Assembly: GCF_022810405.1 (NCBI RefSeq)
Contig: NZ_JALGQE010000013.1
Coordinates: forward strand, 62,001 to 126,000
Length of the DNA: 64,000 nucleotides
Origin: Rhodococcus sp. ARC_M5
GTDB lineage: Bacteria > Actinomycetota > Actinomycetes > Mycobacteriales > Mycobacteriaceae
Reading direction: 5' to 3'
Each line of letters opens with the position of its first letter. Position 1 is the first letter of the stretch. Made by a program: the position numbers and the translations under genes. Below the pieces are notes generated by a model. That model was not told the origin of the DNA. It worked only from the letters and a program-made list of their open reading frames with translations, and ran no database searches. This document shows, piece by piece, positions 22,649 to 40,509 of the stretch.

Positions 22649-25600
22649 TCACTTCGGTCGAACAGGGGACTCTGCCTCGAGGTCGGCAAGCAGTTCCAGG
22701 AGGTCGGCCGTGGAGAGCTGTTCGATGAGTCGATCGACGTCGTGGTCGTCGGCGACCGTCTCTGGGCGGTCGTCGAGGACCGGCACCGGTCCGGTTTCCT
22801 CGTCGACCTGGAGTTCGGCGAAGATGCGATCGACCAGCCCGCTCACCGTAATGCCCTTGAGCAGTTCCAGCACCGGCACGTCGACTGCGATGACCGCGGC
22901 GATCCTGGACTTCAATTCGATCGCCATCATGGAATCGAGACCGAGGTCATTCATCGTCGCGTCGCCGCCGACATCGTCGAGTGGCAGGTCGAACACGCCG
23001 GCGACGATCTGGGTCACGTAACCCGCAACAACGCCGAGCTGATCGGCCTCCGGCGTGCCTTTGAGCACGTCCAGTAACGAGAACCCAGCGCCCGCATCGT
23101 CACTCAGGGCGTCGGCCCTCCCCAATTCGGCGTAGATCGCAGGCAGCTGACCGGCCATACCGGTTTTACGAAGACGAGCCCAGTCCGCGGAGATGGCCAC
23201 CACGGTGGGCACCTCCTGATTCATCACTCGGTCGAGGATCCGGCCGCCGGCCTCGGGGGTGATGAGCTCGACGCCTCGCATCTCGTACATCTTCTCCAGT
23301 TTCAGTTCCTCGACCATCCCGACCGACCACGGCCCCCAACCGATTGTCAGCGCAGGCAACCCCTTGGCTCGCAACTGACAGGCAAAGACATCGAGGAACG
23401 AATTCGCGGCGGCATAGTTGCCTTGACCGGGCGAAGCGATAACCGATCCAGCCGAACCGAACATCACGAAGAATTCCAGGTCGTTCGCATGGAAGACGCT
23501 ACTCAGGACGCGGGCACCGTCGATCTTGGGAGCCAGCACCTTCGCGAACGACGCCTCGTCCATGTTCACCAACAGCTGGTCCTCGACAACGCCAGCGGCG
23601 TGGATGACGCCTCGAACCGGCCGGCCACCCTGTCGAGTGTGATCACGTGCCCACCGTTGCACCTGCTCGAGGTCGGTGATGTCGACACTTGCCGTGGTGA
23701 TGTGCACGCCCAACTTCTCGATCCCTCGAATCGCGTCGACCACCGAGTACTGCGCGTCGTCGACAGAAATCTCCGACCATCGGCTGCGTGGCGGAAGCTC
23801 CGTACGGCTGAAGAGCGCGATATCGCGAGCTCCACGCTTCGCGAGGTACCTGGCAACCACCTGACCCAGCGCCCCCAAGCCGCCGGTGACCACATAGGTC
23901 GCATCCGGCGTCAGCTTCGTGGGAAAGGCCTTGGTCAACCCATCCATGGGGAACAGCCGCGGGACAAAGGTCTCGGTGCCACGAAACGCGACTTGATCCT
24001 CGGCACCCTCGGTCAAGATGTGCCTGCAGAGTCGTTCGGCGGTCTGGGCCGGATCGTCGGCGTCGTCGATGTCCATCAGACCGCCCCACTTGTCGGTCAG
24101 TTCCTGGTGGCCGATCACCCGCCCCAGCCCCCACAGCGGAGCCTGGTCGACGGCAAGTCGATCGGTTCCCGGCACCGGCTGCGCATTCGCGGTGATCAAA
24201 TAGAGACGCGGACAGACGGTCTCGTGCCGTGCCATAGCCGCAGCGAGGTGGAGGGCCGCGAAAACACCGACCCTCCGTCCTGCCTCAGCCGCGCCATCCG
24301 TCCCCGAGTCCGCCGCATCGGGAACGTCCAGTGGCCAACAGTTCACGATGCCCGCGAGGTCGCCCTCTATCTGCACATGCGCGTCGATGAGATCGACGAA
24401 CTGCTGCGGCTGACCGCCATCGATCCGATACTCACCGTCGACCTCGACGAGCCGGTCCACGGCGCGGTGAACGGCCGTGCGCACCCGCTGTCCGCTCTCG
24501 CGGAGTTGTCGAGCCACGAGTGAGCCGATGCCAGAGGAATCGGACAGGACCAACCACGAAAGATCCTTGGCCGCGATGCTTTTGCTCTCGTCCAGTTCAC
24601 CTCCCGCCACCCAGCGAACGTCGAGCAGACCCTTGTCGACGTGCTCGGGCGACATACCGATCGACGAGTTGAGTGACGCAACGGTGAAGCCCTCGAGCGA
24701 GACCAACAGCTCACCGGTCCGACTCGAAATGGTGATGTCACTTTCGATCACCGAACTGCTCACCGACACCAACCGCACCTCGACCGTCATGGTCTGCTGC
24801 GGAGCCCCATGGACGGTGGCTCGTCGAACGCCCGACGGCAGGAAAGCCTCCGTACCGAGATCTTTCCCGGAGATGGACATCGCCAGGAGAGTCTGCAGCG
24901 CACCATCGATGAGCGCTGGATGGAACCGGTACCTGTCCAGGTCCGAATGGATCGATTCGGGGACGACGAGTTCGCCTGTCGCCCAACCGTCCCCTGCGGT
25001 GACGCGGCGTACGGACTGGAATGCCTCGCCGTACTCGAAGCCGAAAGCACGGCTGCGCGCGTAGAACTCGTCGAATTCGATGACGACGCTCTCCCCGGGG
25101 TGCTTCGGAGCCGGACCGACACGGCACCCTCGGGAGATCGTGTTCAACTCTGCTGTCGCCGCAATCACCCAGTGCAGGTCGCCACCGGTAGTGGCCGTCA
25201 TCGCGGCGAACTCGATCACGCCGGTGGCCCGGTCGAGGGTGGTACGTACTGTCGGGTCGCAGGTCTGATCGAGTATCACGGCGTGCTGCAGGTTCAGGTT
25301 CTCGACGCAGAAGTCGGTCGAGCCGAACGCTTCTTTTCCCGCTGCCACTGCCATCTCGATGAATGCTGTGCCCGGCACGAGGGTGCTGCCCTGCGCCTTG
25401 TGGTCAGCGAGAAACGGGAGGGTCGCCACGCTGAGTTCGGCCTCCCATGTCGGGTGCACGTCGAGGACCGGCTGACCCAGAATCGGATGGACCGGGTTGT
25501 AATGCAACTCCTCCACAGTCTCCGGAGTCTCGTTCCAGTAACTCTTAGCCTGCCATGGGTACCTCGGCAGGGAGAGCAGTCGCGCACGAGCTTTGGGATA

Positions 25601-39166: not shown

Positions 39167-40509
39167 GGTCGACTCACCGCCTCTTCCAGTGGCTGCTCCC
39201 CGGACGGGCCGAACATGTACCCCGACCTGTGAAGTCGACGCTCGAACAGGCGCTGCAATGGGGTTGCAACGAAGGTCGTGACCAGGGTCATGAGAACCAA
39301 AACGGTGTAGAGGCGCGCCGAGATGATTCCCGCCTCGAATCCGATGTTCACCAGGATGAGCTCCATCAGTCCCCGGGCATTGGCGAGTGCGCCCATCGAA
39401 CCGGCCTCGAACCAACTCATTCCCTGCCACCGAGCGGCCAGCCCGACAGCACCGAACTTCACCGCGAACGACACGACCAGGACCACGGCCGCCACGAGAA
39501 GTGTCGAGGCGTCGAAGATCAGATTCAGCTGGGTGTTCAGCCCCGAATAGATGAAGAACGCAGGCACCAGAACGTACGCGGTCAGCGGCTCGAATCGATT
39601 CCGAATCGTGTCGAGAAGCGGACCTCGCGGCATCACGATCCCGGCGATGAATGCACCGAATACCGAGTAGATCCCGACCAGATCGGTGAACCAGCTAGCC
39701 GCGAACACGACGAGAAGGACGACGGTCACGTGCGTGATCGGCATATCGCCGGTGGTCCCACGGTCGCCGTGGCGCGGTGTCCAGGTCGCGAGTTTGGCGA
39801 GTAGAGGGCGACTTACGTAGATCATGAAGAGCAGATATGCCAGTCCCCCACCGACGGCGACGACTGCGCCCAGCGGGGTGCCCTTCGCGGTAGCTACCAC
39901 GGTTGCCAGGAGGATCCAGGAACACGCATCGTCGATGGCAGCACACGACAACGCCATGGTTCCGAGTCGGGTGTTCGCCAGGCCCGAGTCGTAGACGATC
40001 CAGGCCAGCATCGGAAAGGCGGTGATGGCGACCGCCGAGGCGAGGAACAATGCCCCCTGCCAGGCGGCCACCTCGTCGGTGAAGAAGCCACCGCGGCTGA
40101 CCAACCACCATCCCGCAGCACCACCGAGAATGAGTGGCGCACCGATACCCGCGACCGATGTCGCGCCCGCCTGCCGCGCATGGTCTCGGAGGATTTCGGT
40201 TCGGAAGGAGGCCCCCACCAAGAACATGTAGAGCACGAGGCCTAATTGACCCACCACATAGATGGCGACGATATTCGGGTGGGCGATGGTCTCGCTGCCG
40301 ATGGTCAGTGTGGTGGGGAACAGCCATTGTTGTGCGCCCGGCAGGACCCAGCCCAGAATCGATGGCCCGAGGACAAATCCGGCAACCATGATCGCGACTA
40401 CCTGCACTTGAGCCAACCTGCGAAACAGTGGCCACAAGAGACGGTACATCAGCAGAATAACTGTTATCTGAAGAAAGAAATGACCGGCAATGCTCAATAG
40501 TGAAGGCAA
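39160..40509 (-). CDS. CPA2-family cation/proton antiporter
   Basis: 449-aa protein with about twelve membrane helices, typical of the KefB/NapA antiporter group. The discontinuous-helix region shows SCAAIDDACSWILLA near residue 195, with the tandem Asp pair of CPA2 transporters. No cytoplasmic TrkA-N domain. The TTG start at 40509 has AAGGA five bases upstream. Antiporters of this kind occur in several polyketide loci and may serve self-protection or energise export; the role here is inferred. Confidence 0.9.
   Translation of the reverse strand: MPSLLSIAGHFFLQITVILLMYRLLWPLFRRLAQVQVVAIMVAGFVLGPSILGWVLPGAQQWLFPTTLTIGSETIAHPNIVAIYVVGQLGLVLYMFLVGASFRTEILRDHARQAGATSVAGIGAPLILGGAAGWWLVSRGGFFTDEVAAWQGALFLASAVAITAFPMLAWIVYDSGLANTRLGTMALSCAAIDDACSWILLATVVATAKGTPLGAVVAVGGGLAYLLFMIYVSRPLLAKLATWTPRHGDRGTTGDMPITHVTVVLLVVFAASWFTDLVGIYSVFGAFIAGIVMPRGPLLDTIRNRFEPLTAYVLVPAFFIYSGLNTQLNLIFDASTLLVAAVVLVVSFAVKFGAVGLAARWQGMSWFEAGSMGALANARGLMELILVNIGFEAGIISARLYTVLVLMTLVTTFVATPLQRLFERRLHRSGYMFGPSGEQPLEEAVSRPC

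Follow-up and report, generated by a model that had tools for sequence, protein, structure and literature searches.

What does a single reducing polyketide synthase (PKS) module make when it is encoded beside two halogenase-like flavoproteins and a relative of an enediyne-cassette protein? The question is raised by a locus of Rhodococcus sp. ARC_M5, within a stretch of 64,000 nucleotides of contig NZ_JALGQE010000013.1 (positions 62,001 to 126,000; hereafter the window). An original prediction from the DNA had described a compact biosynthetic cluster at 22649..40509 and had named ten genes with their domains. All ten genes were found, all ten reading frames are open, and the description as a compact cluster was upheld: it has a single reducing PKS module, catalytically complete, and its core is co-inherited. 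The locus is an accessory island, and the genes for the second flavoprotein (FAD2), the PKS and a CPA2-family antiporter (CPA2) are conserved together in other bacteria, as are, in a wider family of clusters, those for the first flavoprotein (FAD1), a thioesterase (TE) and a DUF1702 protein. There is, in our judgement, an even chance that an iterative PKS makes a polyene, which the flavoproteins and the DUF1702 protein oxidise or halogenate.

The accessory biosynthetic island spans approximately 22513-41218 (18.7 kb, not assigned to a strand), very near the limits first predicted. It lies between a 2-oxoacid dehydrogenase operon on the left (E1 alpha, E1 beta, E2 and E3 type genes) and, on the right, genes for a glyoxalase-like protein, an MFS transporter and an FAD-linked oxidase. 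In 20 of 37 genomes of the genus the E2 gene had a match at E 1e-100 or lower, and the oxidase was matched in all 37 (at least 67% identity in 18, its own genome included). These genes are separated by 22.4 kb in the genome under study and by 3.1-32.1 kb in the 16 relatives that have both on one contig. Eight of these 16, mostly with short intervals, were fetched for a blastn comparison of the flanks; the contents of the 18-32 kb between the flank genes of G009, G013 and G022 lay outside the comparison. In seven relatives the left-flank similarity (84-91% identical) ended at window position 22500-22515 and the right-flank similarity (84-89%) started again at 41259-42040; the eighth, G022, was compared on the right side only and matched from 41219. 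The interval between the flanks was 0.85-7.4 kb in all seven, and tblastn found none of the window's proteins in it. Because the genes are absent between the flanks of all seven and the insertion has defined edges, the block is an island. Its G+C content is 61.9%, compared with 64.2% and 65.0% in the flanks.

The interval from the dehydrogenase E3 gene to the MFS gene (window 22500-42045) is a variable spot, with 0.85-7.4 kb of differing DNA in the seven relatives. Of the eight relatives fetched, only G011 and G022 matched the glyoxalase-like gene and a following frame that by eye resembles an HxlR-type regulator (41061-42010), the matches starting at 41219-41259; the two are therefore considered accessory yet outside the island.

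Conservation across Rhodococcus had been proposed as a check on the cluster. It is not conserved across the genus, since orthologues of the DUF1702 protein or of either flavoprotein were present in none of the 36 other genomes. DUF1702 was found in the cluster's own genome only (1 of 37), and FAD2 as a query returned its own FAD1 at E 6e-148 and a best match in another genome at E 2.7e-8, the matches in 28 of the 36 reaching at best this value, with 27% identity, or being short FAD-motif stretches. A lack of co-conservation had been named as a ground for abandoning the prediction; the opposite was observed, with core genes co-occurring in relatives and across phyla. Given the defined edges of the insertion and the occurrence of the core genes together across phyla, the gene set is not a chance assembly. 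It was not recognised in any description in literature searches that left most subscription journals outside.

A scan of 84,980 species genomes with FAD2 confirmed 92 places, of which 80 loci were kept: five fuller clusters, five proteobacterial loci and 70 mycobacterial-type loci. The fuller clusters belong to scattered taxa, namely Streptomyces calidiresistens, Pseudonocardiaceae YIM PH 21723, Lentzea aerocolonigenes, Tsukamurella sp. 8F and Ktedonospora formicarum (Chloroflexota). As in the window, all five encode a PKS, a TE, FAD2- and FAD1-type flavoproteins, a CPA2 antiporter and DUF1702; these six genes together define what is here called the FAD-TE-PKS-DUF1702-CPA2 family, and the window contains all six. 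The PKSs are 46-50% identical to that of the window, with TE relatives of 39-49% identity adjoining them in every case (tblastn). CPA2 (39160..40509, minus strand; a cation/proton antiporter, PF00999, 174.5 bits) is 70-71% identical in Lentzea and Pseudonocardiaceae, above the PKS identity, and 36-44% identical in the other three. The fuller clusters differ from the window in their four intact DUF1702 copies, in a third flavoprotein (FAD3; three FAD homologues per cluster and two in Tsukamurella, so that four of five have the third), and in other regulators and, in some, a ferredoxin. BTAD-type regulators lie near the clusters of Streptomyces, Pseudonocardiaceae and Tsukamurella, a ferredoxin near those of Streptomyces, Lentzea and Tsukamurella, and an HxlR-type regulator near those of Lentzea and Tsukamurella. 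The Lentzea cluster is divided between two contigs, and that of Pseudonocardiaceae has an additional partial FAD frame at the edge of its stretch.

Mycobacteria keep a stripped form of FAD2, PKS and CPA2. In 68 of the 70 mycobacterial-type loci the PKS lies -15 to 811 bases from FAD2 (between alignment ends), and the two without a PKS (L039 and L078) stop at contig ends. FAD2 is 58-65% identical to its orthologue in the window and the PKS 55-68% over the aligned parts. A CPA2 gene is present in 67 of the 70; it is at least 70% identical to the window's in 23 of these loci, as in Lentzea and Pseudonocardiaceae, and 36-46% identical in others. Neither FAD1 nor, when the DNA of the 70 loci was compared, TE, DUF1702, SnoaL-like, ABC1 or methyltransferase genes were detected. 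In place of the last three and MmpL, all found in the window, the mycobacterial locus has genes for an ABC ATPase and an ABC-2 permease (the next two genes in L008; of the 70 loci, 55 had the first group called and 52 the second).

CPA2 lies downstream in L008-type loci (approximately 75% identical to the window's) and upstream in L014-type loci (approximately 43%); judged by these identities, two different antiporters appear to have been recruited to the same FAD2-PKS pair. Two of the 70, L018 and L051, have the mycobacterial-type FAD2-PKS-CPA2 locus on contigs labelled Ilumatobacteraceae and Acidobacteria, and may be misbinned, since their flavoproteins group with those of mycobacteria in the tree described below.

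The PKS (22649..28264, minus strand) is a single-module type I protein in which Pfam reported KS (301 bits), AT (220), DH (PS-DH, 90), KR (191) and ACP (PP-binding, 44) domains, and neither an ER nor a TE domain. These are the domains that had been predicted, and their active-site motifs are intact. The open reading frame starts with TTG; translation probably begins at residue 16 of that frame, with the ATG at 28219, and this start gives the predicted 11-base overlap of the PKS and TE genes. The active-site motifs of KS, AT, DH, KR and ACP are present in the window and in its aligned homologues, as judged from 69 frames of more than 1700 residues (the window, five fuller clusters and 63 mycobacterial-type; shorter frames were left out). 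Among the 63 mycobacterial-type frames, the KS cysteine motif DTACS[SG]S, HGTGT and NIGHLE were found in all and GHSAGE in 62; across the alignment the AT motif was most divergent in Ktedonospora. The TE (28209..29129, minus strand; PF00975, 104 bits) is type II-like, with its GxSxG motif (GHSMG) at residue 142. A single complete reducing module that lacks an ER, as here, is what an iterative polyene PKS would have. Because the KR and DH are intact and the ER is absent, the product is read as a polyene, for which the module would be used iteratively.

FAD1 (29101..30816, minus strand) and FAD2 (30831..32603, minus strand) had been predicted to be tandem flavoproteins with halogenase motifs. 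Both have an FAD-binding fold with homology to characterised halogenases: FAD1 matched PltA at E 2e-18 (phmmer), FAD2 gave a profile match to ChlB4/PltA/CmlS, and PltA, ChlB4 and CmlS were within the top five solved relatives of each, most of the named ones being halogenases. The kinship thus stood, but each protein is without one diagnostic motif. Halogenases of this kind are marked by the motifs WxWxIP and FxxPxxSxG (FxDP). FAD1 retains the first (WVWLIP, in WVWLIPL) and has SIDPLYSSGGD for the second, with S for F (SIDP for FxDP); its orthologues Scal_15, Pseu_22, LenA_9 and Tsuk_39 have the same P and the same S. FAD2 retains the second (FLDPLYSSGLD) and has WVWIIR (in WVWIIRL) for the first; this R for P, with F kept, recurs in Scal_14, Pseu_21, LenA_8, Tsuk_38 and 63 of 64 mycobacterial-type FAD2 proteins, called at more than 450 residues from the 70 loci. 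The exceptions are one mycobacterial-type protein (P/F), Kted_28 (R/S) and Kted_27 (P/A). Both motifs are kept (P/F) in FAD3 of Lentzea and Pseudonocardiaceae, while Scal_16 is R/F although it falls in the FAD3 group. A lysine in K[MF]GLR, a candidate for the conserved catalytic lysine of halogenases, is present in FAD1, FAD2 and all 64 mycobacterial-type proteins, and falls near a lysine of ChlB4/PltA in sequence alignments. Because of the R in FAD2 and the S in FAD1, neither is a textbook halogenase; they are called halogenase-like here and neither is filed as a proven halogenase.

In a flavoprotein tree (built from 15 of the 68 called mycobacterial and proteobacterial proteins and four from databases, without the split Lentzea FAD1), FAD1 grouped with Scal_15, Pseu_22 and Tsuk_39 at 100/100. 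FAD2 formed a 100/100 clade with mycobacterial FAD2 proteins, and a wider group with Scal_14, Tsuk_38, Pseu_21 and LenA_8 at 100/99. FAD1 and FAD2 are old paralogues with complementary motif losses, and these two conserved active sites with opposite losses offer a test of what the motifs determine. Among the best 120 of 3394 FAD2 relatives, three were 81-85% identical (one labelled as a Rhodococcus metagenome-assembled genome) and the others 62-66%, the named ones of the latter being mostly mycobacterial. The two-flavoprotein form is rare in the order and phylum samples. Of 397 genomes of the order, scored on the best three candidates per genome, 16 have FAD1-like proteins at E 1e-100: its own and 15 that belong to a single other genus of the family (44-47% identity). 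At E 1e-60 such proteins were found in 4 of 396 genomes of the phylum sample. Plasmid relatives of FAD1 occur in Janthinobacterium lividum (H21, 42%) and Gloeothece verrucosa (H22, 37%).

The protein encoded at 32644..33651 (minus strand) had been called DUF1702-like. The match was confirmed and the wording proved too cautious, as it is a full member of the family of the enediyne cassette protein E3 (Pfam, 200 bits against a cut-off of 25), and some of its database relatives carry the name enediyne biosynthesis protein E3. DUF1702 is, to our knowledge, an enediyne-cassette protein of unsettled role. Its predicted model is all-helical (pLDDT, the predicted local distance difference test, 89) and had no clear or useful match in the PDB. 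Residues E79, D89, D187, R192, R216 and R265, together with glycines and F158, are invariant in 27 sequences, three of them enediyne proteins; as a conserved set, the charged residues suggest an active site rather than a structural surface. Alignment A2 comprised 55 of 120 listed relatives and the window protein minus its first residue. DUF1702 is present in 3 of 61 close and ordinal relatives and in 3 of 396 genomes of the phylum sample, its own genome counted in each.

Trees of DUF1702 were built with 16 of the 20 intact copies of the fuller clusters, and with all 20 plus 9 of the 120 listed relatives; the broken Ktedonospora copy was in neither. The 20 copies fall into four orthologue groups, a to d, each with the four actinobacterial taxa. 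Ktedonospora is represented in b, c and d, its fourth intact copy being unplaced. Groups a, b and c and the enediyne proteins lie opposite d across a 100/100 branch. The enediyne branch stood beside c in the 16-copy tree (83/77), and its position among a, b and c was not fixed in the 20-copy tree. The window protein and P0121, P0122, P0124 and P0125 formed a 99/98 group with the d copies of Lentzea, Tsukamurella, Pseudonocardiaceae and Streptomyces. The window genome thus has one DUF1702 copy, on the side of group d, rather than all four groups of the fuller clusters, and lacks groups a, b and c as well as FAD3. With one DUF1702 group and with FAD1 and TE kept, compared with four groups in the fuller clusters and none in mycobacteria, the window appears to stand between the fuller clusters on one side and the stripped mycobacterial loci on the other. 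The series of fuller, intermediate and stripped loci offers a route to the function of DUF1702 without making an enediyne: here the protein accompanies halogenase-like flavoproteins and an ordinary DH-KR-ACP module, and it is missing from the mycobacterial form.

A DUF1702 relative occurs in 48 plasmid records, 47 of them from Streptomyces. In two Streptomyces plasmids DUF1702 directly precedes genes for a VCBS or CRTAC1 protein, a UnbU-type protein, a type I PKS and a TE; these linear plasmids (L099 and L100) carry enediyne-type cassettes by their annotation. Ktedonospora (L139) has a fifth DUF1702 copy broken in two pieces (Kted_21/Kted_22), with a TAG inside one. In Tsukamurella, a condensation/PapA-like acyltransferase gene (L143:5595-7451) overlaps or adjoins a DUF1702 gene, and acyl transfer of the product is possible.

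The reading that we favour is as follows. The lone module would be reused, with KS and AT condensing and KR and DH acting in each round, and with no ER this would leave a conjugated polyene on the ACP. FAD1 and FAD2 would act on the chain or its released form by oxidation and, in at least one step, probably halogenation, and the TE would edit or release the chain. DUF1702 may carry out a polyene-tailoring step, as its relative E3 may in enediyne cassettes. The SnoaL-like protein and the methyltransferase could finish the product, MmpL could export it, and the CPA2 antiporter could serve production or self-protection by adjusting the balance of ions or protons.

This mechanism is supported by analogy with xanthomonadins, with one pseudomonad cluster and with the cladoniamide antiporter. 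A passage of one paper describes xanthomonadin clusters with a halogenase gene and xanthomonadins as aryl polyenes with 0-2 bromines (PMC3691225). Like the proposed pathway these clusters combine a polyene product with a halogenase gene, and they differ in their discrete (type II) enzymes and aryl polyene product. A flavoprotein relative lies in a cluster of this make-up in the pseudomonad locus L081 (38% identity to FAD2 and 42% to FAD1), with two KSs, a FabG-like reductase, acyltransferases, an AMP-ligase and an ACP; no DUF1702 match was found there. A second pseudomonad locus, L084, also has a related flavoprotein and looks aryl-polyene-like from the gene groups it has in common with L081. 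According to a passage of PMC3158105, the cladoniamide cluster has a Na+/H+ antiporter gene, claT, together with the chlorinase gene claH. The cladoniamide and BE-54017 clusters resemble the window in pairing a flavin-dependent chlorinase gene (halogenase-like in the window) with a Na+/H+ antiporter gene, the antiporter by description only, and differ in serving a bis-indole pathway.

Several observations weigh against this proposal. Iteration is not legible from the PKS sequence, and the AT motif, PYHSHYM, is without a substrate assignment. FAD1 or FAD2 could instead be an oxidase, desaturase or monooxygenase, and Pfam found no flavin reductase among the ten island genes. In Tsukamurella the parts are more loosely arranged, a DNA polymerase gene and approximately 20 kb lying between the PKS and DUF1702 genes. 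The genes for MmpL, ABC1, the SnoaL-like protein and the methyltransferase are local additions outside the wider family: at E 1e-5, tblastn found the last three neither in the 80 loci nor in the five fuller clusters, and for MmpL it gave matches of just 25-26%, in three mycobacterial loci. The PKS also resembles lipid synthases of the Pks2/MAS type.

That resemblance underlies the strongest alternative, in which the cluster serves a lipid of the outer membrane. The PKS would supply its acyl chain, unusual in being hydroxylated or unsaturated, export would fall to MmpL in the window and to the ABC transporter in mycobacteria, and the flavoproteins would be desaturases or epoxidases rather than halogenases. 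We think this unlikely but treat it as serious, because the PKS is like the mycobacterial lipid synthases and an MmpL exporter adjoins. Lipid PKSs of mycobacteria rank high among its matches: a Pks2-type NCBIfam model scored 999 bits, under its cut-off of 2400 and second to a general PKS model, and MAS was first among solved structures. The commonness of the stripped form in mycobacteria and the lost P of WxWxIP in FAD2 are in keeping with a lipid. However, Pks2/MAS-type synthases carry an ER and make saturated chains, and the window PKS lacks this domain; in the ten genes of the island, Pfam detected no FadD/FAAL and no Pap acyltransferase. The same core also occurs in Streptomyces, Lentzea and Ktedonospora, which do not have mycolic envelopes, and the BTAD-type regulators and ferredoxins that adjoin the fuller clusters fit a lipid pathway poorly.

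A further alternative is an enediyne-like acetylenic pathway, in which a polyene is halogenated and loses hydrogen halide to give alkynes or allenes, with DUF1702 as the catalyst shared with enediynes. Enediynes are said to pass through a diiodotetrayne, a route attributed to Gui et al. in 2024 (the title taken from a reference list). Like the window, the enediyne PKS cassette (DUF1702/E3, UnbV, UnbU, PKSE and a TE) places DUF1702 by a single, presumably iterative PKS and a TE, and the invariant residues are common to both; moreover, four DUF1702 groups are found where two or three flavoproteins are present. In contrast, neither UnbU nor UnbV was found among the ten island proteins by Pfam, DUF1702 was undetected in the mycobacterial form, and the flavoproteins and CPA2 are additions over the enediyne cassette. 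The PKS domain order also differs, the KR standing before the DH in enediyne PKSs (a passage of PMC7692728) and the order being DH-KR-ACP in the window. We think it quite unlikely that the island represents such a pathway. Just as unlikely, in our estimate, is its extension to a further way of making acetylenic or allenic polyketides, distinct from that of enediynes, in which the ancient, complementary flavoproteins would act as a pair on the polyene, DUF1702 would eliminate hydrogen halide or rearrange the chain by the same chemistry as E3, and mycobacteria would have kept the first half only. If such a route were true, old actinomycete acetylenes of unknown origin would be candidate products, for example mycomycin, presumably a Nocardia product, though a passage in the literature puts it among fungal polyynes.

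That the island is a decayed remnant of a fuller cluster and makes nothing, as the missing FAD3 and DUF1702 groups a, b and c could suggest, is very improbable, given ten open frames, intact PKS motifs and the existence on other contigs of FAD2, DUF1702 and ABC1 relatives that are 57-90% identical, as under selection.

Of the local additions, the SnoaL-like gene (33761..34393, minus strand) had been described as NTF2-like; this fold was supported by a match to PF12680, although a modest one (31.6 bits, cut-off 27). The protein is possibly a cyclase or isomerase, and its gene is separated from DUF1702 by the predicted 109 bases (33652-33760). The ABC1/UbiB-type atypical kinase gene (34528..35961, plus strand; PF03109, 190 bits) is followed by that of an S-adenosylmethionine-dependent methyltransferase (35958..36809, plus strand; PF04072, 90 bits), which had been predicted as TcmP-like and is of TIGR00027 type (94.1 bits, cut-off 93.55). 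Only ABC1 of these could be linked to FAD2 on other contigs, through equal contig sizes: the same longest-contig size was shared by P0019, P0124 and P0246 (81397), by P0025, P0125 and P0247 (102681) and by P0004 and P0245 (519134). This suggests that FAD2, DUF1702 and ABC1 lie together on the 81397 and 102681 contigs; no DUF1702 relative was among the relatives listed for the 519134 contig.

Lipid-type export had been predicted from the MmpL-family gene (36902..39430, minus strand; PF03176, 236 bits), which is present but does not belong to the wider family. MmpL was matched in all 37 genomes of the genus, at no more than 42% identity outside its own gene. Its homologues align mostly from approximately residue 70-105, few of them from further upstream, and a start at residue 89, an ATG at base 39166, would give a 7-base overlap with the CPA2 gene. 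The open reading frame is thus probably over-extended by 88 codons, with a likely start at ATG 39166 and a protein of 754 residues. The 3' ends of mycobacterial CPA2 genes matched the extension at 44-56% over approximately 80 residues, and these matches were gone once it was removed; they are attributed to CPA2 DNA conserved in another frame.

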